From Nereocystis luetkeana (lineage: Eukaryota > Sar > Phaeophyceae > Laminariales > Laminariaceae): a stretch of DNA of 64,000 bases. Of this stretch, positions 24,988 through 64,000 are shown in pieces (positions within the stretch are counted from its first letter, which is position 1; each line of letters starts with the position of its first letter). The position numbers and the translations under genes were made by a program. The notes under the pieces are model-generated. The model was given only the letters and a program-made list of their open reading frames with translations. It had not been told where the DNA came from and ran no database searches. The stretch spans positions 6,671,680-6,735,679 of the forward strand of contig JARUPZ010000018.1 of NCBI GenBank assembly GCA_031213475.1, in the 5' to 3' direction.

Positions 24988-25007
24988 ATGTTCCCTCCCA
25001 TGGAACA
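24818..25007 (+). repeat. Marker variant junction, occurrence 5
   Basis: It has the full allele set. Its host unit (anchor 24641) carries AATTAAAG instead of the AATTCAAG seen in the other marker units, so the left part of this unit has been exchanged. The next marker is 2433 bp on. Confidence 0.92.
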
Positions 25008-27420: not shown

Positions 27421-27440
27421 ATGTTCCCTCCCATGGAACA
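27251..27440 (+). repeat. Marker variant junction, occurrence 6
   Basis: It has the full allele set and closes the second 7-unit block. The next marker is 11 units (3813 bp) on. Confidence 0.92.
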
Positions 27441-29848: not shown

Positions 29849-31063
29849 ATGTTCCCTCCCATGGAACGATCAGTCATCACTGGGAGTTACTGGGGGTCTT
29901 GGGTAACCACGAACTACAACCACGGCAGAAATTCAAGGCCGGGTCACGACATGCGGCGACCAGTACTGGTACGAAGACTCGACTACGTATCTTCAAGGAT
30001 CCACAACGACCATCCTCCTACTCGTGGACTAGCACCTACCTAGGATACAGTACTACCACCAACCTCCAGCCCACAGTAGATACGACGTGGGGACACCAGC
30101 CGGATTAATTATGTGGGTATCCTCCCCCCCTCCCAAGAGCCTTCGTTCCTTGCTACGAGTAACCGGTCTCGAAAAAAGGCGCGAAGCGAAACAAAATGTT
30201 CCCTCCCATGGAACGATCAGTCATCACTGGGAGTTACTGGGGGTCTTGGGTAACCACGAACTACAACCACGGCAGAAATTCAAGGCCGGGTCACGACATG
30301 CGGCGACCAGTACTGGTACGAAGACTCGACTAGGTATCTTCAAGGATCCACAACGACCATCCTCCTACTCGTGGACTAGCACCTACCTAGGATACAGCAC
30401 TACCACCAACCTCCAACCCACAGTAGATACGACGTGGGGACACCAGCCGGATTAATTATGTGGGTATCCTCCCCCCCTCCCAAGAGCCTTCGTTCCTTGC
30501 TACGAGTAACCGGTCTCGAAGGCGCGAAGCGAAACAAAATGTTCCCTCCCATGGAACGATCAGTCATCACTGGGAGTTACTGGGGGTCTTGGGTAACCAC
30601 GAACTACAACCACGGCAGAAATTCAAGGCCGGGTCACGACATGCGACGACCAGTACTGGTACGAAGACTCGACTACGTATCTTCAAGGATCCACAACGAC
30701 CATCCTCCTACTCGTGGACTAGCACCTACCTAGGATACAGTACTACCACCAACCTCCAGCCCACAGTAGATACGACGTGGGGACACCAGCCGGATTATTT
30801 ATGTGGGTATCCTCCCCCCCTCCCAAGAGCCTTCGTTCCTTGCTACGAGTAACCGGTCTCGAACAAATGGCGCGAAGCGAAACAAAATGTTCCCTCCCAT
30901 GGAACGATCAGTCATCACTGGGAGTTACTGGGGGTCTTGGGTAACCACGAACTACAACCACGGCAGAAATTCAAGGCCGGGTCACGACATGCGGCGACCA
31001 GTACTGGTACGAAGACTCGACTACGTATCTTCAAGGATCCACAACGACCATCCTCCTACTCGT

Positions 31064-31253
31064 AAACTAGCACCTACCTAGGATACAGTACTACCACCAA
31101 CCTCCAGCCCACAGTAGATACGACGTGGGGGCACCAGCCGGATTAAATATGTGAGTATCCTCCCCCCCTCTAAAGAGCCTTCGTTCCTTGCTACGAGTAA
31201 CCGGTCTCGAAAAAAGGCGCGAAGCGAAACAAAATGTTCCCTCCCATGGAACA
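31064..31253 (+). repeat. Marker variant junction, occurrence 7 (last full one)
   Basis: It has the full allele set. The unit before it (anchor 30539) has a private G to A giving ATGCGACGACC. After this point only a partial marker is seen, near 32511-32535, with GGGGGCACC, TTAAATATG and GTGAGTATCC but neither CTCTAAAG nor TACTCGTAAAC. None occurs in block IV. Confidence 0.92.
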
Positions 31254-31576
31254 ATCAGTCATCACTGGGAGTTACTGGGGGTCTTGGGTAACCACGAACT
31301 ACAACCACGGCAGAAATTCAAGGCCGGGTCACGACATGCGGCGACCAGTACTGGTACGAAGACTCGACTAGGTATCTTCAAGGATCCACAACGACCATCC
31401 TCCTACTCGTGGACTAGCACCTACCTAGGATACAGTACTACCACCAACCTCCAACCCACAGTAGATACGACGTGGGGACACCAGCCGGATTAATTATGTG
31501 GGTATCCTCCCCCCCTCCCAAGAGCCTTCGTTCCTTGCTACGAGTAACCGGTCTCGAAGGCGCGAAGCGAAACAAA

Positions 31577-33307
31577 ATGTTCCCTCCCATGGAACGATCA
31601 GTCATCACTGGGAGTTACTGGGGGTCTTGGGTAACCACGAACTACAACCACGGCAGAAATTCAAGGCCGGGTCATGACATGCGGCGACCAGTACTGGTAC
31701 GAAGACTCGACTACGTATCTTCCAGGATCCACAACGTTCATCCTCCTACTCGTGGACTAGCACCTATCTAGGATACAGTACTACCACCAACCTCCAGCCC
31801 ACAGTAGATACGACGTGGGGACACCAGCCGGATTAATTATGTGGGTATCCTCCCCCCCTCCCAAGAGCCTTCGTTCCTTGCTACGAGTAACCGGTCTCGA
31901 AAAAAAGCGCGAAGCGAAACAAACTGTTCCCTCCCATGGAACGATCAGTCATCACTGGGAGTTACTGGGGGTCTTGGGTAACCACGGACTACAACCACGG
32001 CAGAAATTCAAGGCCGGGTCACGACATGCGGCGACTAGTACTGGTACGAAGACTCGACTAGGTATCTTCAAGGATCCACAACGACCATCCTCCTACTCGT
32101 GGACTAGCACCTACCTAGGATACAGTACTACCACCAACCTCCAACCCACAGTAGATACGACGTGGGGACACCAGCCGGATTAATTATGTGGGTATCCTCC
32201 CCCCCTCCCAAGAGCCTTCGTTCCTTGCTACGAGTAACCGGTCTCGAAGGCGCGAAGCGAAACAAAATGTTCCCTCCCATGGAACGATCAGTCATCACTG
32301 GGAGTTACTGGGGGTCTTGGGTAACCACGAACTACAACCACGGCAGAAATTCAAGGCCGGGTCACGACATGCGGCGACCAGTACTGGTACGAAGACTCGA
32401 CTACGTATCTTCAAGGATCCACAACGACCATCCTCCTACTCGTGGACTAGCACCTACCTAGGATACAGTACTACCACCAACCTCCAGCCCACAGTAGATA
32501 CGACGTGGGGGCACCAGCCGGATTAAATATGTGAGTATCCTCCCCCCCTCCCAAGAGCCTTCGTTCCTTGCTACGAGCAACCGGTCTCGAACAAAGGCGC
32601 GAAGCGAAACAAAATGTTCCCTCCCATGGAACGATCAGTCATCACTGGGAGTTACTGGGGGTCTTGGGTAACCACGAACTACAACCACGGCAGAAATTAA
32701 AGGCCGGGTCACGACATGCGGCGACCAGTACTGGTACGAAGACTCGACTACGTATCTTCAAGGATCCACAACGACCATCCTCCTACTCGTGGACTAGCAC
32801 CTACCTAGGATACAGTACTACCACCAACCTCCAGCCCACAGTAGATACGACGTGGGGACACCAGCCGGATTAATTATGTGGGTATCCTCCCCCCCTCCCA
32901 AGAGCCTTCGTTCCTTGCTACGAGTAACCGGTCTCGAAAAAAGGCGCGAAGCGAAACAAAATGTTCCCTCCCATGGAACGATCAGTCATCACTGGGAGTT
33001 ACTGGGGGTCTTGGGTAACCACGAACTACAACCACGGCAGAAATTAAAGGCCGGGTCACGACATGCGGCGACCAGTACTGGTACGAAGACTCGACTACGT
33101 ATCTTCAAGGACCCACAACGACCATCCTCCTACTCGTGGACTAGCACCTACCTAGGATACAGTACTACCACCAACCTCCAGCCCACAGTAGATACGACGT
33201 GGGGACACCAGCCGGATTAATTATGTGGGTATCCTCCCCCCCTCCCAAGAGCCTTCGTTCCTTGCTACGAGTAACCGGTCTCGAACAAAGGCGCGAAGCG
33301 AAACAAA
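31577..33307 (+). repeat. Degenerate transition zone between old and homogenised arrays
   Basis: Five units show an excess of private changes: C to T at 31675, A to C at 31723, AC to TT at 31737-31738, C to T at 31767 (shared with two older units), G to A at 31906 beside the linker, CTG for ATG at 31924, A to G at 31987, C to T at 32036 (breaks the palindrome), a partial marker near 32511-32535, and T to C giving GAGCAACC near 32578. The last two units bring in block IV alleles one at a time: the CAAA linker before 32614, then GGACCC at 33109-33114. Confidence 0.87.
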
Positions 33308-33684
33308 ATGTTCCCTCCCATGGAACGATCAGTCATCACTGGGAGTTACTGGGGGTCTTGGGTAACCACGAACTACAACCACGGCAGAAATTCAAGGCCG
33401 GGTCACGACATGCGGCGACCAGTACTGGTACGAAGACTCGACTACGTATCTTCAAGGACCCACAACGACCATCCTCCTACTCGTGGACTAGCACCTACCT
33501 AGGATACAGTACTACCACCAACCTCCAGCCCACAGTAGATACGACGTGGGGACACCAGCCGGATTAATTATGTGGGTATCCTCCCCCCCTCCCAAGAGCC
33601 TTCGTTCCTTGCTACGAGTAACCGGTCTCGAACAAAGGCGCGAAGCGAAACAAAATGTTCCCTCCCATGGAACGATCAGTCATC

Positions 33685-33704
33685 ACTGGGAGTTACTGGG
33701 GGTC
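33685..33704 (+). repeat. 10-bp imperfect tandem duplication inside the unit
   Basis: ACTGGGAGTT is followed at once by ACTGGGGGTC, matching at 8 of 10 positions. It is present in every unit examined and so predates the array. One unit has a private G to T in the first half at 2136. Confidence 0.75.
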
Positions 33705-33764
33705 TTGGGTAACCACGAACTACAACCACGGCAGAAATTCAAGGCCGGGTCACGACATGCGGCG

Positions 33765-33776
33765 ACCAGTACTGGT
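33765..33776. other. 12-bp perfect palindrome ACCAGTACTGGT (one per unit)
   Basis: The sequence equals its own reverse complement and contains a ScaI site. It lies at the same place in essentially every unit; the one broken copy I found is at 32036, where C to T gives ACTAGTACTGGT. The core CAGTACT recurs about 90 bp downstream in each unit. A conserved dyad could be a binding site for a dimeric protein, but no such protein is implied by the sequence. Confidence 0.85.
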
Positions 33777-33847
33777 ACGAAGACTCGACTACGTATCTTC
33801 AAGGACCCACAACGACCATCCTCCTACTCGTGGACTAGCACCTACCT

Positions 33848-33929
33848 AGGATACAGTACTACCACCAACCTCCAGCCCACAGTAGATACGACGTGGGGAC
33901 ACCAGCCGGATTAATTATGTGGGTATCCT
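33848..33929. other. Intra-unit inverted repeats AGGATAC/GTATCCT and CCCACA/TGTGGG
   Basis: AGGATAC at 33848-33854 is the exact reverse complement of GTATCCT at 33923-33929, with 68 nt between. Within that span CCCAC at 33876-33880 can pair with GTGGG at 33893-33897 across 12 nt, or CCCACA at 33876-33881 with TGTGGG at 33918-33923. The arms are short and mutually exclusive in part, so stable extrusion is unproven. Confidence 0.5.
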
Positions 33930-33940
33930 CCCCCCCTCCC
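33926..33940 (+). other. 15-nt pyrimidine tract with C7 (one per unit)
   Basis: TCCTC followed by CCCCCCTCCC gives an uninterrupted pyrimidine run; the minus strand is correspondingly G-rich with runs of three and seven G. It is constant in length wherever I looked, and the marker units change only its right edge (CTCTAAAG). It could favour unusual DNA structure, but it falls short of four GGG runs. Confidence 0.75.
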
Positions 33941-33979
33941 AAGAGCCTTCGTTCCTTGCTACGAGTAACCGGTCTCGAA

Positions 33980-33983
33980 CAAA
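33980..33983 (+). other. Length-setting linker (CAAA in the homogenised unit)
   Basis: Between TCTCGAA and GGCGCG each unit has one of five states: nothing (343 bp), AAAA or CAAA (347 bp), CAAAT or AAAAT (348 bp). In the heterogeneous part I count 17, 33 (one with an adjacent base change), 3, 41 and 2 respectively, which accounts exactly for the anchor spacing. CGAA occurs on both sides of the linker, which could promote slippage. All block IV units have CAAA. Confidence 0.92.
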
Positions 33984-36900
33984 GGCGCGAAGCGAAACAA
34001 AATGTTCCCTCCCATGGAACGATCAGTCATCACTGGGAGTTACTGGGGGTCTTGGGTAACCACGAACTACAACCACGGCAGAAATTCAAGGCCGGGTCAC
34101 GACATGCGGCGACCAGTACTGGTACGAAGACTCGACTACGTATCTTCAAGGACCCACAACGACCATCCTCCTACTCGTGGACTAGCACCTACCTAGGATA
34201 CAGTACTACCACCAACCTCCAGCCCACAGTAGATACGACGTGGGGACACCAGCCGGATTAATTATGTGGGTATCCTCCCCCCCTCCCAAGAGCCTTCGTT
34301 CCTTGCTACGAGTAACCGGTCTCGAACAAAGGCGCGAAGCGAAACAAAATGTTCCCTCCCATGGAACGATCAGTCATCACTGGGAGTTACTGGGGGTCTT
34401 GGGTAACCACGAACTACAACCACGGCAGAAATTCAAGGCCGGGTCACGACATGCGGCGACCAGTACTGGTACGAAGACTCGACTACGTATCTTCAAGGAC
34501 CCACAACGACCATCCTCCTACTCGTGGACTAGCACCTACCTAGGATACAGTACTACCACCAACCTCCAGCCCACAGTAGATACGACGTGGGGACACCAGC
34601 CGGATTAATTATGTGGGTATCCTCCCCCCCTCCCAAGAGCCTTCGTTCCTTGCTACGAGTAACCGGTCTCGAACAAAGGCGCGAAGCGAAACAAAATGTT
34701 CCCTCCCATGGAACGATCAGTCATCACTGGGAGTTACTGGGGGTCTTGGGTAACCACGAACTACAACCACGGCAGAAATTCAAGGCCGGGTCACGACATG
34801 CGGCGACCAGTACTGGTACGAAGACTCGACTACGTATCTTCAAGGACCCACAACGACCATCCTCCTACTCGTGGACTAGCACCTACCTAGGATACAGTAC
34901 TACCACCAACCTCCAGCCCACAGTAGATACGACGTGGGGACACCAGCCGGATTAATTATGTGGGTATCCTCCCCCCCTCCCAAGAGCCTTCGTTCCTTGC
35001 TACGAGTAACCGGTCTCGAACAAAGGCGCGAAGCGAAACAAAATGTTCCCTCCCATGGAACGATCAGTCATCACTGGGAGTTACTGGGGGTCTTGGGTAA
35101 CCACGAACTACAACCACGGCAGAAATTCAAGGCCGGGTCACGACATGCGGCGACCAGTACTGGTACGAAGACTCGACTACGTATCTTCAAGGACCCACAA
35201 CGACCATCCTCCTACTCGTGGACTAGCACCTACCTAGGATACAGTACTACCACCAACCTCCAGCCCACAGTAGATACGACGTGGGGACACCAGCCGGATT
35301 AATTATGTGGGTATCCTCCCCCCCTCCCAAGAGCCTTCGTTCCTTGCTACGAGTAACCGGTCTCGAACAAAGGCGCGAAGCGAAACAAAATGTTCCCTCC
35401 CATGGAACGATCAGTCATCACTGGGAGTTACTGGGGGTCTTGGGTAACCACGAACTACAACCACGGCAGAAATTCAAGGCCGGGTCACGACATGCGGCGA
35501 CCAGTACTGGTACGAAGACTCGACTACGTATCTTCAAGGACCCACAACGACCATCCTCCTACTCGTGGACTAGCACCTACCTAGGATACAGTACTACCAC
35601 CAACCTCCAGCCCACAGTAGATACGACGTGGGGACACCAGCCGGATTAATTATGTGGGTATCCTCCCCCCCTCCCAAGAGCCTTCGTTCCTTGCTACGAG
35701 TAACCGGTCTCGAACAAAGGCGCGAAGCGAAACAAAATGTTCCCTCCCATGGAACGATCAGTCATCACTGGGAGTTACTGGGGGTCTTGGGTAACCACGA
35801 ACTACAACCACGGCAGAAATTCAAGGCCGGGTCACGACATGCGGCGACCAGTACTGGTACGAAGACTCGACTACGCATCTTCAAGGACCCACAACGACCA
35901 TCCTCCTACTCGTGGACTAGCACCTACCTAGGATACAGTACTACCACCAACCTCCAGCCCACAGTAGATACGACGTGGGGACACCAGCCGGATTAATTAT
36001 GTGGGTATCCTCCCCCCCTCCCAAGAGCCTTCGTTCCTTGCTACGAGTAACCGGTCTCGAACAAAGGCGCGAAGCGAAACAAAATGTTCCCTCCCATGGA
36101 ACGATCAGTCATCACTGGGAGTTACTGGGGGTCTTGGGTAACCACGAACTACAACCACGGCAGAAATTCAAGGCCGGGTCACGACATGCGGCGACCAGTA
36201 CTGGTACGAAGACTCGACTACGTATCTTCAAGGACCCACAACGACCATCCTCCTACTCGTGGACTAGCACCTACCTAGGATACAGTACTACCACCAACCT
36301 CCAGCCCACAGTAGATACGACGTGGGGACACCAGCCGGATTAATTATGTGGGTATCCTCCCCCCCTCCCAAGAGCCTTCGTTCCTTGCTACGAGTAACCG
36401 GTCTCGAACAAAGGCGCGAAGCGAAACAAAATGTTCCCTCCCATGGAACGATCAGTCATCACTGGGAGTTACTGGGGGTCTTGGGTAACCACGAACTACA
36501 ACCACGGCAGAAATTCAAGGCCGGGTCACGACATGCGGCGACCAGTACTGGTACGAAGACTCGACTACGTATCTTCAAAAGGACCCACAACGACCATCCT
36601 CCTACTCGTGGACTAGCACCTACCTAGGATACAGTACTACCACCAACCTCCAGCCCACAGTAGATACGACGTGGGGACACCAGCCGGATTAATTATGTGG
36701 GTATCCTCCCCCCCTCCCAAGAGCCTTCGTTCCTTGCTACGAGTAACCGGTCTCGAACAAAGGCGCGAAGCGAAACAAAATGTTCCCTCCCATGGAACGA
36801 TCAGTCATCACTGGGAGTTACTGGGGGTCTTGGGTAACCACGAACTACAACCACGGCAGAAATTCAAGGCCGGGTCACGACATGCGGCGACCAGTACTGG

Positions 36901-39900
36901 TACGAAGACTCGACTACGTATCTTCAAGGACCCACAACGACCATCCTCCTACTCGTGGACTAGCACCTACCTAGGATACAGTACTACCACCAACCTCCAG
37001 CCCACAGTAGATACGACGTGGGGACACCAGCCGGATTAATTATGTGGGTATCCTCCCCCCCTCCCAAGAGCCTTCGTTCCTTGCTACGAGTAACCGGTCT
37101 CGAACAAAGGCGCGAAGCGAAACAAAATGTTCCCTCCCATGGAACGATCAGTCATCACTGGGAGTTACTGGGGGTCTTGGGTAACCACGAACTACAACCA
37201 CGGCAGAAATTCAAGGCCGGGTCACGACATGCGGCGACCAGTACTGGTACGAAGACTCGACTACGTATCTTCAAGGACCCACAACGACCATCCTCCTACT
37301 CGTGGACTAGCACCTACCTAGGATACAGTACTACCACCAACCTCCAGCCCACAGTAGATACGACGTGGGGACACCAGCCGGATTAATTATGTGGGTATCC
37401 TCCCCCCCTCCCAAGAGCCTTCGTTCCTTGCTACGAGTAACCGGTCTCGAACAAAGGCGCGAAGCGAAACAAAATGTTCCCTCCCATGGAACGATCAGTC
37501 ATCACTGGGAGTTACTGGGGGTCTTGGGTAACCACGAACTACAACCACGGCAGAAATTCAAGGCCGGGTCACGACATGCGGCGACCAGTACTGGTACGAA
37601 GACTCGACTACGTATCTTCAAGGACCCACAACGACCATCCTCCTACTCGTGGACTAGCACCTACCTAGGATACAGTACTACCACCAACCTCCAGCCCACA
37701 GTAGATACGACGTGGGGACACCAGCCGGATTAATTATGTGGGTATCCTCCCCCCCTCCCAAGAGCCTTCGTTCCTTGCTACGAGTAACCGGTCTCGAACA
37801 AAGGCGCGAAGCGAAACAAAATGTTCCCTCCCATGGAACGATCAGTCATCACTGGGAGTTACTGGGGGTCTTGGGTAACCACGAACTACAACCACGGCAG
37901 AAATTCAAGGCCGGGTCACGACATGCGGCGACCAGTACTGGTACGAAGACTCGACTACGTATCTTCAAGGACCCACAACGACCATCCTCCTACTCGTGGA
38001 CTAGCACCTACCTAGGATACAGTACTACCACCAACCTCCAGCCCACAGTAGATACGACGTGGGGACACCAGCCGGATTAATTATGTGGGTATCCTCCCCC
38101 CCTCCCAAGAGCCTTCGTTCCTTGCTACGAGTAACCGGTCTCGAACAAAGGCGCGAAGCGAAACAAAATGTTCCCTCCCATGGAACGATCAGTCATCACT
38201 GGGAGTTACTGGGGGTCTTGGGTAACCACGAACTACAACCACGGCAGAAATTCAAGGCCGGGTCACGACATGCGGCGACCAGTACTGGTACGAAGACTCG
38301 ACTACGTATCTTCAAGGACCCACAACGACCATCCTCCTACTCGTGGACTAGCACCTACCTAGGATACAGTACTACCACCAACCTCCAGCCCACAGTAGAT
38401 ACGACGTGGGGACACCAGCCGGATTAATTATGTGGGTATCCTCCCCCCCTCCCAAGAGCCTTCGTTCCTTGCTACGAGTAACCGGTCTCGAACAAAGGCG
38501 CGAAGCGAAACAAAATGTTCCCTCCCATGGAACGATCAGTCATCACTGGGAGTTACTGGGGGTCTTGGGTAACCACGAACTACAACCACGGCAGAAATTC
38601 AAGGCCGGGTCACGACATGCGGCGACCAGTACTGGTACGAAGACTCGACTACGTATCTTCAAGGACCCACAACGACCATCCTCCTACTCGTGGACTAGCA
38701 CCTACCTAGGATACAGTACTACCACCAACCTCCAGCCCACAGTAGATACGACGTGGGGACACCAGCCGGATTAATTATGTGGGTATCCTCCCCCCCTCCC
38801 AAGAGCCTTCGTTCCTTGCTACGAGTAACCGGTCTCGAACAAAGGCGCGAAGCGAAACAAAATGTTCCCTCCCATGGAACGATCAGTCATCACTGGGAGT
38901 TACTGGGGGTCTTGGGTAACCACGAACTACAACCACGGCAGAAATTCAAGGCCGGGTCACGACATGCGGCGACCAGTACTGGTACGAAGACTCGACTACG
39001 TATCTTCAAGGACCCACAACGACCATCCTCCTACTCGTGGACTAGCACCTACCTAGGATACAGTACTACCACCAACCTCCAGCCCACAGTAGATACGACG
39101 TGGGGACACCAGCCGGATTAATTATGTGGGTATCCTCCCCCCCTCCCAAGAGCCTTCGTTCCTTGCTACGAGTAACCGGTCTCGAACAAAGGCGCGAAGC
39201 GAAACAAAATGTTCCCTCCCATGGAACGATCAGTCATCACTGGGAGTTACTGGGGGTCTTGGGTAACCACGAACTACAACCACGGCAGAAATTCAAGGCC
39301 GGGTCACGACATGCGGCGACCAGTACTGGTACGAAGACTCGACTACGTATCTTCAAGGACCCACAACGACCATCCTCCTACTCGTGGACTAGCACCTACC
39401 TAGGATACAGTACTACCACCAACCTCCAGCCCACAGTAGATACGACGTGGGGACACCAGCCGGATTAATTATGTGGGTATCCTCCCCCCCTCCCAAGAGC
39501 CTTCGTTCCTTGCTACGAGTAACCGGTCTCGAACAAAGGCGCGAAGCGAAACAAAATGTTCCCTCCCATGGAACGATCAGTCATCACTGGGAGTTACTGG
39601 GGGTCTTGGGTAACCACGAACTACAACCACGGCAGAAATTCAAGGCCGGGTCACGACATGCGGCGACCAGTACTGGTACGAAGACTCGACTACGTATCTT
39701 CAAGGACCCACAACGACCATCCTCCTACTCGTGGACTAGCACCTACCTAGGATACAGTACTACCACCAACCTCCAGCCCACAGTAGATACGACGTGGGGA
39801 CACCAGCCGGATTAATTATGTGGGTATCCTCCCCCCCTCCCAAGAGCCTTCGTTCCTTGCTACGAGTAACCGGTCTCGAACAAAGGCGCGAAGCGAAACA

Positions 39901-42900
39901 AAATGTTCCCTCCCATGGAACGATCAGTCATCACTGGGAGTTACTGGGGGTCTTGGGTAACCACGAACTACAACCACGGCAGAAATTCAAGGCCGGGTCA
40001 CGACATGCGGCGACCAGTACTGGTACGAAGACTCGACTACGTATCTTCAAGGACCCACAACGACCATCCTCCTACTCGTGGACTAGCACCTACCTAGGAT
40101 ACAGTACTACCACCAACCTCCAGCCCACAGTAGATACGACGTGGGGACACCAGCCGGATTAATTATGTGGGTATCCTCCCCCCCTCCCAAGAGCCTTCGT
40201 TCCTTGCTACGAGTAACCGGTCTCGAACAAAGGCGCGAAGCGAAACAAAATGTTCCCTCCCATGGAACGATCAGTCATCACTGGGAGTTACTGGGGGTCT
40301 TGGGTAACCACGAACTACAACCACGGCAGAAATTCAAGGCCGGGTCACGACATGCGGCGACCAGTACTGGTACGAAGACTCGACTACGTATCTTCAAGGA
40401 CCCACAACGACCATCCTCCTACTCGTGGACTAGCACCTACCTAGGATACAGTACTACCACCAACCTCCAGCCCACAGTAGATACGACGTGGGGATACCAG
40501 CCGGATTAATTATGTGGGTATCCTCCCCCCCTCCCAAGAGCCTTCGTTCCTTGCTACGAGTAACCGGTCTCGAACAAAGGCGCGAAGCGAAACAAAATGT
40601 TCCCTCCCATGGAACGATCAGTCATCACTGGGAGTTACTGGGGGTCTTGGGTAACCACGAACTACAACCACGGCAGAAATTCAAGGCCGGGTCACGACAT
40701 GCGGCGACCAGTACTGGTACGAAGACTCGACTACGTATCTTCAAGGACCCACAACGACCATCCTCCTACTCGTGGACTAGCACCTACCTAGGATACAGTA
40801 CTACCACCAAATTCCAGCCCACAGTAGATACGACGTGGGGACACCAGCCGGATTAATTATGTGGGTATCCTCCCCCCCTCCCAAGAGCCTTCGTTCCTTG
40901 CTACGAGTAACCGGTCTCGAACAAAGGCGCGAAGCGAAACAAAATGTTCCCTCCCATGGAACGATCAGTCATCACTGGGAGTTACTGGGGGTCTTGGGTA
41001 ACCACGAACTACAACCACGGCAGAAATTCAAGGCCGGGTCACGACATGCGGCGACCAGTACTGGTACGAAGACTCGACTACGTATCTTCAAGGACCCACA
41101 ACGACCATCCTCCTACTCGTGGACTAGCACCTACCTAGGATACAGTACTACCACCAACCTCCAGCCCACAGTAGATACGACGTGGGGACACCAGCCGGAT
41201 TAATTATGTGGGTATCCTCCCCCCCTCCCAAGAGCCTTCGTTCCTTGCTACGAGTAACCGGTCTCGAACAAAGGCGCGAAGCGAAACAAAATGTTCCCTC
41301 CCATGGAACGATCAGTCATCACTGGGAGTTACTGGGGGTCTTGGGTAACCACGAACTACAACCACGGCAGAAATTCAAGGCCGGGTCACGACATGCGGCG
41401 ACCAGTACTGGTACGAAGACTCGACTACGTATCTTCAAGGACCCACAACGACCATCCTCCTACTCGTGGACTAGCACCTACCTAGGATACAGTACTACCA
41501 CCAACCTCCAGCCCACAGTAGATACGACGTGGGGACACCAGCCGGATTAATTATGTGGGTATCCTCCCCCCCTCCCAAGAGCCTTCGTTCCTTGCTACGA
41601 GTAACCGGTCTCGAACAAAGGCGCGAAGCGAAACAAAATGTTCCCTCCCATGGAACGATCAGTCATCACTGGGAGTTACTGGGGGTCTTGGGTAACCACG
41701 AACTACAACCACGGCAGAAATTCAAGGCCGGGTCACGACATGCGGCGACCAGTACTGGTACGAAGACTCGACTACGTATCTTCAAGGACCCACAACGACC
41801 ATCCTCCTACTCGTGGACTAGCACCTACCTAGGATACAGTACTACCACCAACCTCCAGCCCACAGTAGATACGACGTGGGGACACCAGCCGGATTAATTA
41901 TGTGGGTATCCTCCCCCCCTCCCAAGAGCCTTCGTTCCTTGCTACGAGTAACCGGTCTCGAACAAAGGCGCGAAGCGAAACAAAATGTTCCCTCCCATGG
42001 AACGATCAGTCATCACTGGGAGTTACTGGGGGTCTTGGGTAACCACGAACTACAACCACGGCAGAAATTCAAGGCCGGGTCACGACATGCGGCGACCAGT
42101 ACTGGTACGAAGACTCGACTACGTATCTTCAAGGACCCACAACGACCATCCTCCTACTCGTGGACTAGCACCTACCTAGGATACAGTACTACCACCAACC
42201 TCCAGCCCACAGTAGATACGACGTGGGGACACCAGCCGGATTAATTATGTGGGTATCCTCCCCCCCTCCCAAGAGCCTTCGTTCCTTGCTACGAGTAACC
42301 GGTCTCGAACAAAGGCGCGAAGCGAAACAAAATGTTCCCTCCCATGGAACGATCAGTCATCACTGGGAGTTACTGGGGGTCTTGGGTAACCACGAACTAC
42401 AACCACGGCAGAAATTCAAGGCCGGGTCACGACATGCGGCGACCAGTACTGGTACGAAGACTCGACTACGTATCTTCAAGGACCCACAACGACCATCCTC
42501 CTACTCGTGGACTAGCACCTACCTAGGATACAGTACTACCACCAACCTCCAGCCCACAGTAGATACGACGTGGGGACACCAGCCGGATTAATTATGTGGG
42601 TATCCTCCCCCCCTCCCAAGAGCCTTCGTTCCTTGCTACGAGTAACCGGTCTCGAACAAAGGCGCGAAGCGAAACAAAATGTTCCCTCCCATGGAACGAT
42701 CAGTCATCACTGGGAGTTACTGGGGGTCTTGGGTAACCACGAACTACAACCACGGCAGAAATTCAAGGCCGGGTCACGACATGCGGCGACCAGTACTGGT
42801 ACGAAGACTCGACTACGTATCTTCAAGGACCCACAACGACCATCCTCCTACTCGTGGACTAGCACCTACCTAGGATACAGTACTACCACCAACCTCCAGC

Positions 42901-45900
42901 CCACAGTAGATACGACGTGGGGACACCAGCCGGATTAATTATGTGGGTATCCTCCCCCCCTCCCAAGAGCCTTCGTTCCTTGCTACGAGTAACCGGTCTC
43001 GAACAAAGGCGCGAAGCGAAACAAAATGTTCCCTCCCATGGAACGATCAGTCATCACTGGGAGTTACTGGGGGTCTTGGGTAACCACGAACTACAACCAC
43101 GGCAGAAATTCAAGGCCGGGTCACGACATGCGGCGACCAGTACTGGTACGAAGACTCGACTACGTATCTTCAAGGACCCACAACGACCATCCTCCTACTC
43201 GTGGACTAGCACCTACCTAGGATACAGTACTACCACCAACCTCCAGCCCACAGTAGATACGACGTGGGGACACCAGCCGGATTAATTATGTGGGTATCCT
43301 CCCCCCCTCCCAAGAGCCTTCGTTCCTTGCTACGAGTAACCGGTCTCGAACAAAGGCGCGAAGCGAAACAAAATGTTCCCTCCCATGGAACGATCAGTCA
43401 TCACTGGGAGTTACTGGGGGTCTTGGGTAACCACGAACTACAACCACGGCAGAAATTCAAGGCCGGGTCACGACATGCGGCGACCAGTACTGGTACGAAG
43501 ACTCGACTACGTATCTTCAAGGACCCACAACGACCATCCTCCTACTCGTGGACTAGCACCTACCTAGGATACAGTACTACCACCAACCTCCAGCCCACAG
43601 TAGATACGACGTGGGGACACCAGCCGGATTAATTATGTGGGTATCCTCCCCCCCTCCCAAGAGCCTTCGTTCCTTGCTACGAGTAACCGGTCTCGAACAA
43701 AGGCGCGAAGCGAAACAAAATGTTCCCTCCCATGGAACGATCAGTCATCACTGGGAGTTACTGGGGGTCTTGGGTAACCACGAACTACAACCACGGCAGA
43801 AATTCAAGGCCGGGTCACGACATGCGGCGACCAGTACTGGTACGAAGACTCGACTACGTATCTTCAAGGACCCACAACGACCATCCTCCTACTCGTGGAC
43901 TAGCACCTACCTAGGATACAGTACTACCACCAACCTCCAGCCCACAGTAGATACGACGTGGGGACACCAGCCGGATTAATTATGTGGGTATCCTCCCCCC
44001 CTCCCAAGAGCCTTCGTTCCTTGCTACGAGTAACCGGTCTCGAACAAAGGCGCGAAGCGAAACAAAATGTTCCCTCCCATGGAACGATCAGTCATCACTG
44101 GGAGTTACTGGGGGTCTTGGGTAACCACGAACTACAACCACGGCAGAAATTCAAGGCCGGGTCACGACATGCGGCGACCAGTACTGGTACGAAGACTCGA
44201 CTACGTATCTTCAAGGACCCACAACGACCATCCTCCTACTCGTGGACTAGCACCTACCTAGGATACAGTACTACCACCAACCTCCAGCCCACAGTAGATA
44301 CGACGTGGGGACACCAGCCGGATTAATTATGTGGGTATCCTCCCCCCCTCCCAAGAGCCTTCGTTCCTTGCTACGAGTAACCGGTCTCGAACAAAGGCGC
44401 GAAGCGAAACAAAATGTTCCCTCCCATGGAACGATCAGTCATCACTGGGAGTTACTGGGGGTCTTGGGTAACCACGAACTACAACCACGGCAGAAATTCA
44501 AGGCCGGGTCACGACATGCGGCGACCAGTACTGGTACGAAGACTCGACTACGTATCTTCAAGGACCCACAACGACCATCCTCCTACTCGTGGACTAGCAC
44601 CTACCTAGGATACAGTACTACCACCAACCTCCAGCCCACAGTAGATACGACGTGGGGACACCAGCCGGATTAATTATGTGGGTATCCTCCCCCCCTCCCA
44701 AGAGCCTTCGTTCCTTGCTACGAGTAACCGGTCTCGAACAAAGGCGCGAAGCGAAACAAAATGTTCCCTCCCATGGAACGATCAGTCATCACTGGGAGTT
44801 ACTGGGGGTCTTGGGTAACCACGAACTACAACCACGGCAGAAATTCAAGGCCGGGTCACGACATGCGGCGACCAGTACTGGTACGAAGACTCGACTACGT
44901 ATCTTCAAGGACCCACAACGACCATCCTCCTACTCGTGGACTAGCACCTACCTAGGATACAGTACTACCACCAACCTCCAGCCCACAGTAGATACGACGT
45001 GGGGACACCAGCCGGATTAATTATGTGGGTATCCTCCCCCCCTCCCAAGAGCCTTCGTTCCTTGCTACGAGTAACCGGTCTCGAACAAAGGCGCGAAGCG
45101 AAACAAAATGTTCCCTCCCATGGAACGATCAGTCATCACTGGGAGTTACTGGGGGTCTTGGGTAACCACGAACTACAACCACGGCAGAAATTCAAGGCCG
45201 GGTCACGACATGCGGCGACCAGTACTGGTACGAAGACTCGACTACGTATCTTCAAGGACCCACAACGACCATCCTCCTACTCGTGGACTAGCACCTACCT
45301 AGGATACAGTACTACCACCAACCTCCAGCCCACAGTAGATACGACGTGGGGACACCAGCCGGATTAATTATGTGGGTATCCTCCCCCCCTCCCAAGAGCC
45401 TTCGTTCCTTGCTACGAGTAACCGGTCTCGAACAAAGGCGCGAAGCGAAACAAAATGTTCCCTCCCATGGAACGATCAGTCATCACTGGGAGTTACTGGG
45501 GGTCTTGGGTAACCACGAACTACAACCACGGCAGAAATTCAAGGCCGGGTCACGACATGCGGCGACCAGTACTGGTACGAAGACTCGACTACGTATCTTC
45601 AAGGACCCACAACGACCATCCTCCTACTCGTGGACTAGCACCTACCTAGGATACAGTACTACCACCAACCTCCAGCCCACAGTAGATACGACGTGGGGAC
45701 ACCAGCCGGATTAATTATGTGGGTATCCTCCCCCCCTCCCAAGAGCCTTCGTTCCTTGCTACGAGTAACCGGTCTCGAACAAAGGCGCGAAGCGAAACAA
45801 AATGTTCCCTCCCATGGAACGATCAGTCATCACTGGGAGTTACTGGGGGTCTTGGGTAACCACGAACTACAACCACGGCAGAAATTCAAGGCCGGGTCAC

Positions 45901-51900: not shown

Positions 51901-54900
51901 AGTACTACCACCAACCTCCAGCCCACAGTAGATACGACGTGGGGACACCAGCCGGATTAATTATGTGGGTATCCTCCCCCCCTCCCAAGAGCCTTCGTTC
52001 CTTGCTACGAGTAACCGGTCTCGAACAAAGGCGCGAAGCGAAACAAAATGTTCCCTCCCATGGAACGATCAGTCATCACTGGGAGTTACTGGGGGTCTTG
52101 GGTAACCACGAACTACAACCACGGCAGAAATTCAAGGCCGGGTCACGACATGCGGCGACCAGTACTGGTACGAAGACTCGACTACGTATCTTCAAGGACC
52201 CACAACGACCATCCTCCTACTCGTGGACTAGCACCTACCTAGGATACAGTACTACCACCAACCTCCAGCCCACAGTAGATACGACGTGGGGACACCAGCC
52301 GGATTAATTATGTGGGTATCCTCCCCCCCTCCCAAGAGCCTTCGTTCCTTGCTACGAGTAACCGGTCTCGAACAAAGGCGCGAAGCGAAACAAAATGTTC
52401 CCTCCCATGGAACGATCAGTCATCACTGGGAGTTACTGGGGGTCTTGGGTAACCACGAACTACAACCACGGCAGAAATTCAAGGCCGGGTCACGACATGC
52501 GGCGACCAGTACTGGTACGAAGACTCGACTACGTATCTTCAAGGACCCACAACGACCATCCTCCTACTCGTGGACTAGCACCTACCTAGGATACAGTACT
52601 ACCACCAACCTCCAGCCCACAGTAGATACGACGTGGGGACACCAGCCGGATTAATTATGTGGGTATCCTCCCCCCCTCCCAAGAGCCTTCGTTCCTTGCT
52701 ACGAGTAACCGGTCTCGAACAAAGGCGCGAAGCGAAACAAAATGTTCCCTCCCATGGAACGATCAGTCATCACTGGGAGTTACTGGGGGTCTTGGGTAAC
52801 CACGAACTACAACCACGGCAGAAATTCAAGGCCGGGTCACGACATGCGGCGACCAGTACTGGTACGAAGACTCGACTACGTATCTTCAAGGACCCACAAC
52901 GACCATCCTCCTACTCGTGGACTAGCACCTACCTAGGATACAGTACTACCACCAACCTCCAGCCCACAGTAGATACGACGTGGGGACACCAGCCGGATTA
53001 ATTATGTGGGTATCCTCCCCCCCTCCCAAGAGCCTTCGTTCCTTGCTACGAGTAACCGGTCTCGAACAAAGGCGCGAAGCGAAACAAAATGTTCCCTCCC
53101 ATGGAACGATCAGTCATCACTGGGAGTTACTGGGGGTCTTGGGTAACCACGAACTACAACCACGGCAGAAATTCAAGGCCGGGTCACGACATGCGGCGAC
53201 CAGTACTGGTACGAAGACTCGACTACGTATCTTCAAGGACCCACAACGACCATCCTCCTACTCGTGGACTAGCACCTACCTAGGATACAGTACTACCACC
53301 AACCTCCAGCCCACAGTAGATACGACGTGGGGACACCAGCCGGATTAATTATGTGGGTATCCTCCCCCCCTCCCAAGAGCCTTCGTTCCTTGCTACGAGT
53401 AACCGGTCTCGAACAAAGGCGCGAAGCGAAACAAAATGTTCCCTCCCATGGAACGATCAGTCATCACTGGGAGTTACTGGGGGTCTTGGGTAACCACGAA
53501 CTACAACCACGGCAGAAATTCAAGGCCGGGTCACGACATGCGGCGACCAGTACTGGTACGAAGACTCGACTACGTATCTTCAAGGACCCACAACGACCAT
53601 CCTCCTACTCGTGGACTAGCACCTACCTAGGATACAGTACTACCACCAACCTCCAGCCCACAGTAGATACGACGTGGGGACACCAGCCGGATTAATTATG
53701 TGGGTATCCTCCCCCCCTCCCAAGAGCCTTCGTTCCTTGCTACGAGTAACCGGTCTCGAACAAAGGCGCGAAGCGAAACAAAATGTTCCCTCCCATGGAA
53801 CGATCAGTCATCACTGGGAGTTACTGGGGGTCTTGGGTAACCACGAACTACAACCACGGCAGAAATTCAAGGCCGGGTCACGACATGCGGCGACCAGTAC
53901 TGGTACGAAGACTCGACTACGTATCTTCAAGGACCCACAACGACCATCCTCCTACTCGTGGACTAGCACCTACCTAGGATACAGTACTACCACCAACCTC
54001 CAGCCCACAGTAGATACGACGTGGGGACACCAGCCGGATTAATTATGTGGGTATCCTCCCCCCCTCCCAAGAGCCTTCGTTCCTTGCTACGAGTAACCGG
54101 TCTCGAACAAAGGCGCGAAGCGAAACAAAATGTTCCCTCCCATGGAACGATCAGTCATCACTGGGAGTTACTGGGGGTCTTGGGTAACCACGAACTACAA
54201 CCACGGCAGAAATTCAAGGCCGGGTCACGACATGCGGCGACCAGTACTGGTACGAAGACTCGACTACGTATCTTCAAGGACCCACAACGACCATCCTCCT
54301 ACTCGTGGACTAGCACCTACCTAGGATACAGTACTACCACCAACCTCCAGCCCACAGTAGATACGACGTGGGGACACCAGCCGGATTAATTATGTGGGTA
54401 TCCTCCCCCCCTCCCAAGAGCCTTCGTTCCTTGCTACGAGTAACCGGTCTCGAACAAAGGCGCGAAGCGAAACAAAATGTTCCCTCCCATGGAACGATCA
54501 GTCATCACTGGGAGTTACTGGGGGTCTTGGGTAACCACGAACTACAACCACGGCAGAAATTCAAGGCCGGGTCACGACATGCGGCGACCAGTACTGGTAC
54601 GAAGACTCGACTACGTATCTTCAAGGACCCACAACGACCATCCTCCTACTCGTGGACTAGCACCTACCTAGGATACAGTACTACCACCAACCTCCAGCCC
54701 ACAGTAGATACGACGTGGGGACACCAGCCGGATTAATTATGTGGGTATCCTCCCCCCCTCCCAAGAGCCTTCGTTCCTTGCTACGAGTAACCGGTCTCGA
54801 ACAAAGGCGCGAAGCGAAACAAAATGTTCCCTCCCATGGAACGATCAGTCATCACTGGGAGTTACTGGGGGTCTTGGGTAACCACGAACTACAACCACGG

Positions 54901-57900
54901 CAGAAATTCAAGGCCGGGTCACGACATGCGGCGACCAGTACTGGTACGAAGACTCGACTACGTATCTTCAAGGACCCACAACGACCATCCTCCTACTCGT
55001 GGACTAGCACCTACCTAGGATACAGTACTACCACCAACCTCCAGCCCACAGTAGATACGACGTGGGGACACCAGCCGGATTAATTATGTGGGTATCCTCC
55101 CCCCCTCCCAAGAGCCTTCGTTCCTTGCTACGAGTAACCGGTCTCGAACAAAGGCGCGAAGCGAAACAAAATGTTCCCTCCCATGGAACGATCAGTCATC
55201 ACTGGGAGTTACTGGGGGTCTTGGGTAACCACGAACTACAACCACGGCAGAAATTCAAGGCCGGGTCACGACATGCGGCGACCAGTACTGGTACGAAGAC
55301 TCGACTACGTATCTTCAAGGACCCACAACGACCATCCTCCTACTCGTGGACTAGCACCTACCTAGGATACAGTACTACCACCAACCTCCAGCCCACAGTA
55401 GATACGACGTGGGGACACCAGCCGGATTAATTATGTGGGTATCCTCCCCCCCTCCCAAGAGCCTTCGTTCCTTGCTACGAGTAACCGGTCTCGAACAAAG
55501 GCGCGAAGCGAAACAAAATGTTCCCTCCCATGGAACGATCAGTCATCACTGGGAGTTACTGGGGGTCTTGGGTAACCACGAACTACAACCACGGCAGAAA
55601 TTCAAGGCCGGGTCACGACATGCGGCGACCAGTACTGGTACGAAGACTCGACTACGTATCTTCAAGGACCCACAACGACCATCCTCCTACTCGTGGACTA
55701 GCACCTACCTAGGATACAGTACTACCACCAACCTCCAGCCCACAGTAGATACGACGTGGGGACACCAGCCGGATTAATTATGTGGGTATCCTCCCCCCCT
55801 CCCAAGAGCCTTCGTTCCTTGCTACGAGTAACCGGTCTCGAACAAAGGCGCGAAGCGAAACAAAATGTTCCCTCCCATGGAACGATCAGTCATCACTGGG
55901 AGTTACTGGGGGTCTTGGGTAACCACGAACTACAACCACGGCAGAAATTCAAGGCCGGGTCACGACATGCGGCGACCAGTACTGGTACGAAGACTCGACT
56001 ACGTATCTTCAAGGACCCACAACGACCATCCTCCTACTCGTGGACTAGCACCTACCTAGGATACAGTACTACCACCAACCTCCAGCCCACAGTAGATACG
56101 ACGTGGGGACACCAGCCGGATTAATTATGTGGGTATCCTCCCCCCCTCCCAAGAGCCTTCGTTCCTTGCTACGAGTAACCGGTCTCGAACAAAGGCGCGA
56201 AGCGAAACAAAATGTTCCCTCCCATGGAACGATCAGTCATCACTGGGAGTTACTGGGGGTCTTGGGTAACCACGAACTACAACCACGGCAGAAATTCAAG
56301 GCCGGGTCACGACATGCGGCGACCAGTACTGGTACGAAGACTCGACTACGTATCTTCAAGGACCCACAACGACCATCCTCCTACTCGTGGACTAGCACCT
56401 ACCTAGGATACAGTACTACCACCAACCTCCAGCCCACAGTAGATACGACGTGGGGACACCAGCCGGATTAATTATGTGGGTATCCTCCCCCCCTCCCAAG
56501 AGCCTTCGTTCCTTGCTACGAGTAACCGGTCTCGAACAAAGGCGCGAAGCGAAACAAAATGTTCCCTCCCATGGAACGATCAGTCATCACTGGGAGTTAC
56601 TGGGGGTCTTGGGTAACCACGAACTACAACCACGGCAGAAATTCAAGGCCGGGTCACGACATGCGGCGACCAGTACTGGTACGAAGACTCGACTACGTAT
56701 CTTCAAGGACCCACAACGACCATCCTCCTACTCGTGGACTAGCACCTACCTAGGATACAGTACTACCACCAACCTCCAGCCCACAGTAGATACGACGTGG
56801 GGACACCAGCCGGATTAATTATGTGGGATCCTCCCCCCCTCCCAAGAGCCTTCGTTCCTTGCTACGAGTAACCGGTCTCGAACAAAGGCGCGAAGCGAAA
56901 CAAAATGTTCCCTCCCATGGAACGATCAGTCATCACTGGGAGTTACTGGGGGTCTTGGGTAACCACGAACTACAACCACGGCAGAAATTCAAGGCCGGGT
57001 CACGACATGCGGCGACCAGTACTGGTACGAAGACTCGACTACGTATCTTCAAGGACCCACAACGACCATCCTCCTACTCGTGGACTAGCACCTACCTAGG
57101 ATACAGTACTACCACCAACCTCCAGCCCACAGTAGATACGACGTGGGGACACCAGCCGGATTAATTATGTGGGTATCCTCCCCCCCTCCCAAGAGCCTTC
57201 GTTCCTTGCTACGAGTAACCGGTCTCGAACAAAGGCGCGAAGCGAAACAAAATGTTCCCTCCCATGGAACGATCAGTCATCACTGGGAGTTACTGGGGGT
57301 CTTGGGTAACCACGAACTACAACCACGGCAGAAATTCAAGGCCGGGTCACGACATGCGGCGACCAGTACTGGTACGAAGACTCGACTACGTATCTTCAAG
57401 GACCCACAACGACCATCCTCCTACTCGTGGACTAGCACCTACCTAGGATACAGTACTACCACCAACCTCCAGCCCACAGTAGATACGACGTGGGGACACC
57501 AGCCGGATTAATTATGTGGGTATCCTCCCCCCCTCCCAAGAGCCTTCGTTCCTTGCTACGAGTAACCGGTCTCGAACAAAGGCGCGAAGCGAAACAAAAT
57601 GTTCCCTCCCATGGAACGATCAGTCATCACTGGGAGTTACTGGGGGTCTTGGGTAACCACGAACTACAACCACGGCAGAAATTCAAGGCCGGGTCACGAC
57701 ATGCGGCGACCAGTACTGGTACGAAGACTCGACTACGTATCTTCAAGGACCCACAACGACCATCCTCCTACTCGTGGACTAGCACCTACCTAGGATACAG
57801 TACTACCACCAACCTCCAGCCCACAGTAGATACGACGTGGGGACACCAGCCGGATTAATTATGTGGGTATCCTCCCCCCCTCCCAAGAGCCTTCGTTCCT

Positions 57901-60900
57901 TGCTACGAGTAACCGGTCTCGAACAAAGGCGCGAAGCGAAACAAAATGTTCCCTCCCATGGAACGATCAGTCATCACTGGGAGTTACTGGGGGTCTTGGG
58001 TAACCACGAACTACAACCACGGCAGAAATTCAAGGCCGGGTCACGACATGCGGCGACCAGTACTGGTACGAAGACTCGACTACGTATCTTCAAGGACCCA
58101 CAACGACCATCCTCCTACTCGTGGACTAGCACCTACCTAGGATACAGTACTACCACCAACCTCCAGCCCACAGTAGATACGACGTGGGGACACCAGCCGG
58201 ATTAATTATGTGGGTATCCTCCCCCCCTCCCAAGAGCCTTCGTTCCTTGCTACGAGTAACCGGTCTCGAACAAAGGCGCGAAGCGAAACAAAATGTTCCC
58301 TCCCATGGAACGATCAGTCATCACTGGGAGTTACTGGGGGTCTTGGGTAACCACGAACTACAACCACGGCAGAAATTCAAGGCCGGGTCACGACATGCGG
58401 CGACCAGTACTGGTACGAAGACTCGACTACGTATCTTCAAGGACCCACAACGACCATCCTCCTACTCGTGGACTAGCACCTACCTAGGATACAGTACTAC
58501 CACCAACCTCCAGCCCACAGTAGATACGACGTGGGGACACCAGCCGGATTAATTATGTGGGTATCCTCCCCCCCTCCCAAGAGCCTTCGTTCCTTGCTAC
58601 GAGTAACCGGTCTCGAACAAAGGCGCGAAGCGAAACAAAATGTTCCCTCCCATGGAACGATCAGTCATCACTGGGAGTTACTGGGGGTCTTGGGTAACCA
58701 CGAACTACAACCACGGCAGAAATTCAAGGCCGGGTCACGACATGCGGCGACCAGTACTGGTACGAAGACTCGACTACGTATCTTCAAGGACCCACAACGA
58801 CCATCCTCCTACTCGTGGACTAGCACCTACCTAGGATACAGTACTACCACCAACCTCCAGCCCACAGTAGATACGACGTGGGGACACCAGCCGGATTAAT
58901 TATGTGGGTATCCTCCCCCCCTCCCAAGAGCCTTCGTTCCTTGCTACGAGTAACCGGTCTCGAACAAAGGCGCGAAGCGAAACAAAATGTTCCCTCCCAT
59001 GGAACGATCAGTCATCACTGGGAGTTACTGGGGGTCTTGGGTAACCACGAACTACAACCACGGCAGAAATTCAAGGCCGGGTCACGACATGCGGCGACCA
59101 GTACTGGTACGAAGACTCGACTACGTATCTTCAAGGACCCACAACGACCATCCTCCTACTCGTGGACTAGCACCTACCTAGGATACAGTACTACCACCAA
59201 CCTCCAGCCCACAGTAGATACGACGTGGGGACACCAGCCGGATTAATTATGTGGGTATCCTCCCCCCCTCCCAAGAGCCTTCGTTCCTTGCTACGAGTAA
59301 CCGGTCTCGAACAAAGGCGCGAAGCGAAACAAAATGTTCCCTCCCATGGAACGATCAGTCATCACTGGGAGTTACTGGGGGTCTTGGGTAACCACGAACT
59401 ACAACCACGGCAGAAATTCAAGGCCGGGTCACGACATGCGGCGACCAGTACTGGTACGAAGACTCGACTACGTATCTTCAAGGACCCACAACGACCATCC
59501 TCCTACTCGTGGACTAGCACCTACCTAGGATACAGTACTACCACCAACCTCCAGCCCACAGTAGATACGACGTGGGGACACCAGCCGGATTAATTATGTG
59601 GGTATCCTCCCCCCCTCCCAAGAGCCTTCGTTCCTTGCTACGAGTAACCGGTCTCGAACAAAGGCGCGAAGCGAAACAAAATGTTCCCTCCCATGGAACG
59701 ATCAGTCATCACTGGGAGTTACTGGGGGTCTTGGGTAACCACGAACTACAACCACGGCAGAAATTCAAGGCCGGGTCACGACATGCGGCGACCAGTACTG
59801 GTACGAAGACTCGACTACGTATCTTCAAGGACCCACAACGACCATCCTCCTACTCGTGGACTAGCACCTACCTAGGATACAGTACTACCACCAACCTCCA
59901 GCCCACAGTAGATACGACGTGGGGACACCAGCCGGATTAATTATGTGGGTATCCTCCCCCCCTCCCAAGAGCCTTCGTTCCTTGCTACGAGTAACCGGTC
60001 TCGAACAAAGGCGCGAAGCGAAACAAAATGTTCCCTCCCATGGAACGATCAGTCATCACTGGGAGTTACTGGGGGTCTTGGGTAACCACGAACTACAACC
60101 ACGGCAGAAATTCAAGGCCGGGTCACGACATGCGGCGACCAGTACTGGTACGAAGACTCGACTACGTATCTTCAAGGACCCACAACGACCATCCTCCTAC
60201 TCGTGGACTAGCACCTACCTAGGATACAGTACTACCACCAACCTCCAGCCCACAGTAGATACGACGTGGGGACACCAGCCGGATTAATTATGTGGGTATC
60301 CTCCCCCCCTCCCAAGAGCCTTCGTTCCTTGCTACGAGTAACCGGTCTCGAACAAAGGCGCGAAGCGAAACAAAATGTTCCCTCCCATGGAACGATCAGT
60401 CATCACTGGGAGTTACTGGGGGTCTTGGGTAACCACGAACTACAACCACGGCAGAAATTCAAGGCCGGGTCACGACATGCGGCGACCAGTACTGGTACGA
60501 AGACTCGACTACGTATCTTCAAGGACCCACAACGACCATCCTCCTACTCGTGGACTAGCACCTACCTAGGATACAGTACTACCACCAACCTCCAGCCCAC
60601 AGTAGATACGACGTGGGGACACCAGCCGGATTAATTATGTGGGTATCCTCCCCCCCTCCCAAGAGCCTTCGTTCCTTGCTACGAGTAACCGGTCTCGAAC
60701 AAAGGCGCGAAGCGAAACAAAATGTTCCCTCCCATGGAACGATCAGTCATCACTGGGAGTTACTGGGGGTCTTGGGTAACCACGAACTACAACCACGGCA
60801 GAAATTCAAGGCCGGGTCACGACATGCGGCGACCAGTACTGGTACGAAGACTCGACTACGTATCTTCAAGGACCCACAACGACCATCCTCCTACTCGTGG

Positions 60901-63900
60901 ACTAGCACCTACCTAGGATACAGTACTACCACCAACCTCCAGCCCACAGTAGATACGACGTGGGGACACCAGCCGGATTAATTATGTGGGTATCCTCCCC
61001 CCCTCCCAAGAGCCTTCGTTCCTTGCTACGAGTAACCGGTCTCGAACAAAGGCGCGAAGCGAAACAAAATGTTCCCTCCCATGGAACGATCAGTCATCAC
61101 TGGGAGTTACTGGGGGTCTTGGGTAACCACGAACTACAACCACGGCAGAAATTCAAGGCCGGGTCACGACATGCGGCGACCAGTACTGGTACGAAGACTC
61201 GACTACGTATCTTCAAGGACCCACAACGACCATCCTCCTACTCGTGGACTAGCACCTACCTAGGATACAGTACTACCACCAACCTCCAGCCCACAGTAGA
61301 TACGACGTGGGGACACCAGCCGGATTAATTATGTGGGTATCCTCCCCCCCTCCCAAGAGCCTTCGTTCCTTGCTACGAGTAACCGGTCTCGAACAAAGGC
61401 GCGAAGCGAAACAAAATGTTCCCTCCCATGGAACGATCAGTCATCACTGGGAGTTACTGGGGGTCTTGGGTAACCACGAACTACAACCACGGCAGAAATT
61501 CAAGGCCGGGTCACGACATGCGGCGACCAGTACTGGTACGAAGACTCGACTACGTATCTTCAAGGACCCACAACGACCATCCTCCTACTCGTGGACTAGC
61601 ACCTACCTAGGATACAGTACTACCACCAACCTCCAGCCCACAGTAGATACGACGTGGGGACACCAGCCGGATTAATTATGTGGGTATCCTCCCCCCCTCC
61701 CAAGAGCCTTCGTTCCTTGCTACGAGTAACCGGTCTCGAACAAAGGCGCGAAGCGAAACAAAATGTTCCCTCCCATGGAACGATCAGTCATCACTGGGAG
61801 TTACTGGGGGTCTTGGGTAACCACGAACTACAACCACGGCAGAAATTCAAGGCCGGGTCACGACATGCGGCGACCAGTACTGGTACGAAGACTCGACTAC
61901 GTATCTTCAAGGACCCACAACGACCATCCTCCTACTCGTGGACTAGCACCTACCTAGGATACAGTACTACCACCAACCTCCAGCCCACAGTAGATACGAC
62001 GTGGGGACACCAGCCGGATTAATTATGTGGGTATCCTCCCCCCCTCCCAAGAGCCTTCGTTCCTTGCTACGAGTAACCGGTCTCGAACAAAGGCGCGAAG
62101 CGAAACAAAATGTTCCCTCCCATGGAACGATCAGTCATCACTGGGAGTTACTGGGGGTCTTGGGTAACCACGAACTACAACCACGGCAGAAATTCAAGGC
62201 CGGGTCACGACATGCGGCGACCAGTACTGGTACGAAGACTCGACTACGTATCTTCAAGGACCCACAACGACCATCCTCCTACTCGTGGACTAGCACCTAC
62301 CTAGGATACAGTACTACCACCAACCTCCAGCCCACAGTAGATACGACGTGGGGACACCAGCCGGATTAATTATGTGGGTATCCTCCCCCCCTCCCAAGAG
62401 CCTTCGTTCCTTGCTACGAGTAACCGGTCTCGAACAAAGGCGCGAAGCGAAACAAAATGTTCCCTCCCATGGAACGATCAGTCATCACTGGGAGTTACTG
62501 GGGGTCTTGGGTAACCACGAACTACAACCACGGCAGAAATTCAAGGCCGGGTCACGACATGCGGCGACCAGTACTGGTACGAAGACTCGACTACGTATCT
62601 TCAAGGACCCACAACGACCATCCTCCTACTCGTGGACTAGCACCTACCTAGGATACAGTACTACCACCAACCTCCAGCCCACAGTAGATACGACGTGGGG
62701 ACACCAGCCGGATTAATTATGTGGGTATCCTCCCCCCCTCCCAAGAGCCTTCGTTCCTTGCTACGAGTAACCGGTCTCGAACAAAGGCGCGAAGCGAAAC
62801 AAAATGTTCCCTCCCATGGAACGATCAGTCATCACTGGGAGTTACTGGGGGTCTTGGGTAACCACGAACTACAACCACGGCAGAAATTCAAGGCCGGGTC
62901 ACGACATGCGGCGACCAGTACTGGTACGAAGACTCGACTACGTATCTTCAAGGACCCACAACGACCATCCTCCTACTCGTGGACTAGCACCTACCTAGGA
63001 TACAGTACTACCACCAACCTCCAGCCCACAGTAGATACGACGTGGGGACACCAGCCGGATTAATTATGTGGGTATCCTCCCCCCCTCCCAAGAGCCTTCG
63101 TTCCTTGCTACGAGTAACCGGTCTCGAACAAAGGCGCGAAGCGAAACAAAATGTTCCCTCCCATGGAACGATCAGTCATCACTGGGAGTTACTGGGGGTC
63201 TTGGGTAACCACGAACTACAACCACGGCAGAAATTCAAGGCCGGGTCACGACATGCGGCGACCAGTACTGGTACGAAGACTCGACTACGTATCTTCAAGG
63301 ACCCACAACGACCATCCTCCTACTCGTGGACTAGCACCTACCTAGGATACAGTACTACCACCAACCTCCAGCCCACAGTAGATACGACGTGGGGACACCA
63401 GCCGGATTAATTATGTGGGTATCCTCCCCCCCTCCCAAGAGCCTTCGTTCCTTGCTACGAGTAACCGGTCTCGAACAAAGGCGCGAAGCGAAACAAAATG
63501 TTCCCTCCCATGGAACGATCAGTCATCACTGGGAGTTACTGGGGGTCTTGGGTAACCACGAACTACAACCACGGCAGAAATTCAAGGCCGGGTCACGACA
63601 TGCGGCGACCAGTACTGGTACGAAGACTCGACTACGTATCTTCAAGGACCCACAACGACCATCCTCCTACTCGTGGACTAGCACCTACCTAGGATACAGT
63701 ACTACCACCAACCTCCAGCCCACAGTAGATACGACGTGGGGACACCAGCCGGATTAATTATGTGGGTATCCTCCCCCCCTCCCAAGAGCCTTCGTTCCTT
63801 GCTACGAGTAACCGGTCTCGAACAAAGGCGCGAAGCGAAACAAAATGTTCCCTCCCATGGAACGATCAGTCATCACTGGGAGTTACTGGGGGTCTTGGGT

Positions 63901-64000
63901 AACCACGAACTACAACCACGGCAGAAATTCAAGGCCGGGTCACGACATGCGGCGACCAGTACTGGTACGAAGACTCGACTACGTATCTTCAAGGACCCAC

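Follow-up and report, generated by a model that had tools for sequence, protein, structure and literature searches.

A 347-bp satellite array in two parts

The window, i.e. the whole stretch of 64,000 bp that was analysed, is occupied from end to end by one tandem array. Tandem Repeats Finder returns it as one row with a period of 347, 184.5 copies and 98% matches, and the stretch contains 0 N bases. The long head-to-tail arrangement of highly similar units is that of satellite DNA, and in a search of 1,400 bp against Rfam and of two ORFs against Pfam it did not show itself as a gene array, either of RNA genes or of coding repeats. Three features describe its layout:

1..64000, unstranded: single head-to-tail 347-bp satellite array, continuing beyond both ends of the window
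1..33046, unstranded: diverse flank, an ordered mosaic with 40 unit types among units 0-93 and 16.0 differences/kb
33047..64000, unstranded: uniform core, with identical sequence in 83 of 88 complete units and with five private events

Cuts were made at a conserved 12-mer, and the 184 sites delimit 183 complete units. Their length is 347 bp in 122 cases, 348 in 43, 343 in 16, 349 in 1 and 346 in 1. After alignment, 47 unit types are distinguished among the 183. In the numbering used below, the border between the two parts falls inside unit 94; units 0-93 precede it, and the 88 complete units that follow are numbered 95-182.

An RNA gene array was rejected after a search of 1,400 bp (33,001-34,400) against Rfam, which gave no match with E up to 1. 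A coding repeat was rejected as well: 347 is not divisible by three, and the two ORFs tested against Pfam yielded a single match, in one ORF, with E 0.14, which lies under the curated cut-off and is taken as chance. The unit is not an ancient dimer of two half-units either, a single direct repeat having been found in it, of 8 nt. The unit at 33,293-33,639 carries two 10-nt inverted repeat pairs, each 90% complementary, with arms 228 and 273 nt apart. Single-strand folding of the unit is not unusual (z = 0.08). The 347-bp unit used as a query had no match in the plasmid or phage collections searched, and one 25-mer of it had none in collections of genome contigs or viral contigs, a scope that leaves eukaryote genomes and Dfam/Repbase outside. 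Twelve fragments of the unit, taken from six places on both strands, had no match in the literature searched. A repeat of about 347 bp is reported for Crepis pyrenaica (PMC12589258); no link to it is claimed, there being no sequence for comparison.

The diverse flank

The 94 units of the flank fall into 40 types. Identical neighbours are rare (3 of 93 pairs), with a mean neighbour difference (lag 1) of 5.98 events, which bears out the first-pass annotation where it described neighbours before about 33 kb as differing at many sites and in length. The same annotation called this part a mosaic. The term is right, with the qualification that the order of units is non-random: ordered neighbour pairs recur in 47/93 cases, while 2000 permutations give a mean of 10.9 and a maximum of 25. 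Unit types therefore recur in fixed order, as in a higher-order repeat. Lag similarity points the same way, as values this low were reached by 5/2000 permutations over lags 1-30 and by 0/2000 over lags 1-40. Strongest at lags of 25, 30 and 36 units rather than at one short period, the lag structure is significant but spread across several lags.

The longest exact repeat of the flank comprises two copies:

9354..11888, unstranded: first copy, 2,535 bp, seven units, lag 12489
21,843-24,377, unstranded: second copy, with the same seven unit types

This repeat is read as a recent block duplication or exchange within the flank. Recombination of alleles within units is also present, with all four combinations found in 43/325 pairs of common two-state columns; several of these columns stem from a single 4-base deletion and are not independent. 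Flank units owe their differences in length mostly to a single short tract close to the end of the unit, which reads CAAA, AAAA or CAAAT or has lost 4 bases; this tract is a handy marker of unit type.

The border and the uniform core

The change from flank to core takes place within one unit. Two features define the border, the second of them chosen after the distribution of private changes had been seen:

33047..33111, unstranded: switch interval, in register, 0 inserted bases, from the last flank letter to the first core-specific letter
30524..33292, unstranded: border zone, units 87-94, rich in private changes, with 8/18 of the private events of the window

Unit 94 (32,946-33,292) holds both an A at 33,046, the last flank letter, and a C at 33,112, the first core-specific one, which places the switch within 33,047-33,111. 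The core unit, in whatever rotation, is first matched by an exact 347-mer at 33,047, and no such match begins earlier. The position of 33,047 that had been proposed for the switch is accordingly exact to the base, and the junction, described beforehand as sharp, is confined to 65 bp with the register kept. Such an in-register switch fits homologous exchange or strand invasion. The C at 33,112 turns GGATCC into GGACCC. The same GGACCC is found at 7,101 and 29,654, within two flank units that in other respects differ from the core; there it could be either a recurrent change or a short conversion tract. The core-specific letter is not wholly new in the array.

Beyond the border the array is uniform at the level of one unit. 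The 30,954 bp up to the window end correspond to 89.2 units, in agreement with the earlier count of about 89, and the far edge of the uniform block falls beyond 64 kb, so that the window ends inside it. The block had been called near-clonal apart from five small events, at roughly one event per 6 kb. This stands: 83/88 complete units are identical, the others carry one event each, and the density is one per 6.2 kb, or 0.16 per kb (95% interval 0.05-0.38). They comprise two single substitutions (T>C at 35,876 and C>T at 40,495), one double substitution (CC>AT at 40,811-40,812), one insertion (+AA at 36,577) and one deletion (-T at 56,828). All are private, a private event being one found in just one of the 183 units. 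Neighbour pairs are identical in 78/87 cases, and the mean between-unit difference is 0.39/kb in the core vs 16.0/kb in the flank. The first quarter of the block contains four of the five events (p = 0.016, the split having been chosen post hoc); a test on mean position gives p = 0.051. The crowding of variants toward the border is a hint only. One long interval is free of variants:

40813..56827, unstranded: longest variant-free stretch, about 16.0 kb, where the copy number is least secure

The gap between the events that bound this stretch, 16,016 bp, is of ordinary size for five random events (p = 0.16).

Uniformity of this degree might also be produced by the assembly. A repeat loop could have been walked an arbitrary number of times, or correction and polishing could have flattened variants, in which case the true copy number or diversity would differ from that in the contig. 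Reads shorter than the 16.0-kb variant-free stretch would leave the copy number unanchored there. The authors of HiCanu (PMC7545148) state that near-identical repeat copies can be homogenised by the self-correction step of the original Canu, and they report collapsed repeats. Moreover, a consensus quality of about Q38 would give five events in 31 kb as well; the private events may themselves be errors, which counts against a reading of the core in biological terms. On the other side, an assembler that duplicates variant-bearing pieces would be expected to repeat core variants, and no such duplicated piece was found within the core, each of the five events being seen once. General flattening by polishing is contradicted by the diversity that survives in the flank, and the absence of N bases likewise speaks against an artefact. 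The main HiFi error is homopolymer length (PMC7545148), whereas the core events include one double substitution (CC>AT) and two single substitutions. An artefact of assembly or consensus is on balance held to be unlikely, though far from negligible.

Origin and age of the uniform core

The most probable origin of the core is a recent, fast amplification of one unit, or of a very short identical run, to at least 89 copies, followed by little turnover. The 83 identical units among 88 and the five events, all of them private, support such a burst. The tandem copies would have arisen beside a part of the array that is itself diverse and shuffled in multi-unit blocks. Afterwards, a few point changes would have gathered in the block, none of them copied to neighbours. 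The copying could have taken place through out-of-register break-induced replication or similar sister-strand copying, or through rolling-circle copying and reinsertion. We infer that the burst was biological and took one of these routes, which the sequence does not separate. Break-induced replication is favoured for satellites in general by a review (PMC12321929).

Alternatively, unequal exchange or conversion could be going on at a higher rate in the core than in the flank and hold the core uniform at steady state; the border would then be the edge of this domain. The position of four of the five core events in the first quarter of the block agrees with this, as does the density of private events at the border, which is expected if homogenisation weakens near an edge: units 87-94, a zone chosen post hoc, make up 8/183 units and hold 8/18 of the private events of the window, four of them in unit 90 (31,562-31,908) alone, vs 5 in the 88 core units. 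Simulation argues against it. When array size was held constant while duplication and deletion went on, all variants were private in 0/4 accepted runs of an earlier simulation; as this number was too thin, the simulation was repeated at other rates and gave such an outcome in 1/138 accepted runs (360 run). Growth from one unit gave private variants only in 7/16, 10/33 and 3/15 cases (exactly five events) when 8 mutations were expected afterwards, in 71/354, 46/365 and 2/285 with 3 expected later mutations, and in 22/738, 14/700 and 0/651 with no later mutations. Under another mutation scheme, with no quiet period and with 4-6 events accepted, the values were 34/191 and 55/466 for one-unit steps, 1/6 and 68/472 for steps up to 4, and 1/21 for steps up to 16. 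Private-only variation is rare at constant size and commoner after growth with later mutation, so a burst followed by little turnover fits best. Growth without a later quiet period is disfavoured by these models, less so in its single-unit form under the other mutation scheme.

The density of private mutations also speaks against faster turnover in the core. The interior of the flank (units 8-86) has 3 private events in 79 units vs 5 in 88 for the core (p = 0.73; events are few and the power is little). Since the core density is not lower than that of the flank interior, turnover is not visibly faster in the core, and homogenisation at steady state is considered quite improbable. The eight leftmost units hold 2 private events, whose partners may lie outside the window.

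The same comparison bears on age. The first-pass annotation had proposed a young core next to an older flank, and a homogenised block does adjoin a diverse one across a border that can be located, as amplification models predict. The part of the proposal that does not stand is a flank that is simply older: its ordered recurrence, its exact 2,535-bp repeat and its private density argue otherwise. By this weak test, the newest layer of the flank is not measurably older than the core. The two sides differ in standing variation, the core having passed through a one-unit bottleneck and the flank having kept its diversity. Recent turnover seems to have occurred on both sides, by copying from a single founder in the core and by shuffling of multi-unit blocks in the flank. 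A stronger version of this reading would have both halves turning over equally recently by different copying modes, multi-unit on the left and single-unit on the right, with the border as a persistent seam that lies beyond the reach of both and gathers private mutations; it is considered improbable.

For the burst itself, a mutation rate of 1e-8 per base per generation, an assumed value, gives an age of roughly 5,000 to 38,000 generations. Some or all of the core events may be consensus errors, and the burst would then be younger.

Expansion is a kind of satellite behaviour that is already known. A more homogeneous, younger satellite block adjoining a more divergent satellite is described as layered expansion (PMC12321929, PMC11406182), and the uniform block beside diverse satellite found here resembles that of human alpha satellite, as well as that of Papaver PCEN338, for which layered expansion is also invoked. 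The human case differs in that its uniform centre is a higher-order repeat and its divergent flank is monomeric (PMC12321929), whereas in this array it is the diverse side that is ordered in multi-unit blocks, and the uniform side repeats a single unit. The Papaver case, unlike this one, involves different satellite families. Layered expansion has older layers on both sides, while the window shows one edge, at which no age difference of the newest layer was found. Arabidopsis CEN178/CEN180 is similar in description: its unit is short, its arrays are locally homogeneous and its higher-order blocks are short (PMC12321929). The unit here is 347 bp, not 178.

If the assembly is right, the border between a one-unit expansion and a shuffled multi-unit satellite is resolved to 65 bp, and the mutations on the uniform side are few enough to date the burst. 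The similar density of private mutations on both sides calls for caution against equating satellite diversity with age.
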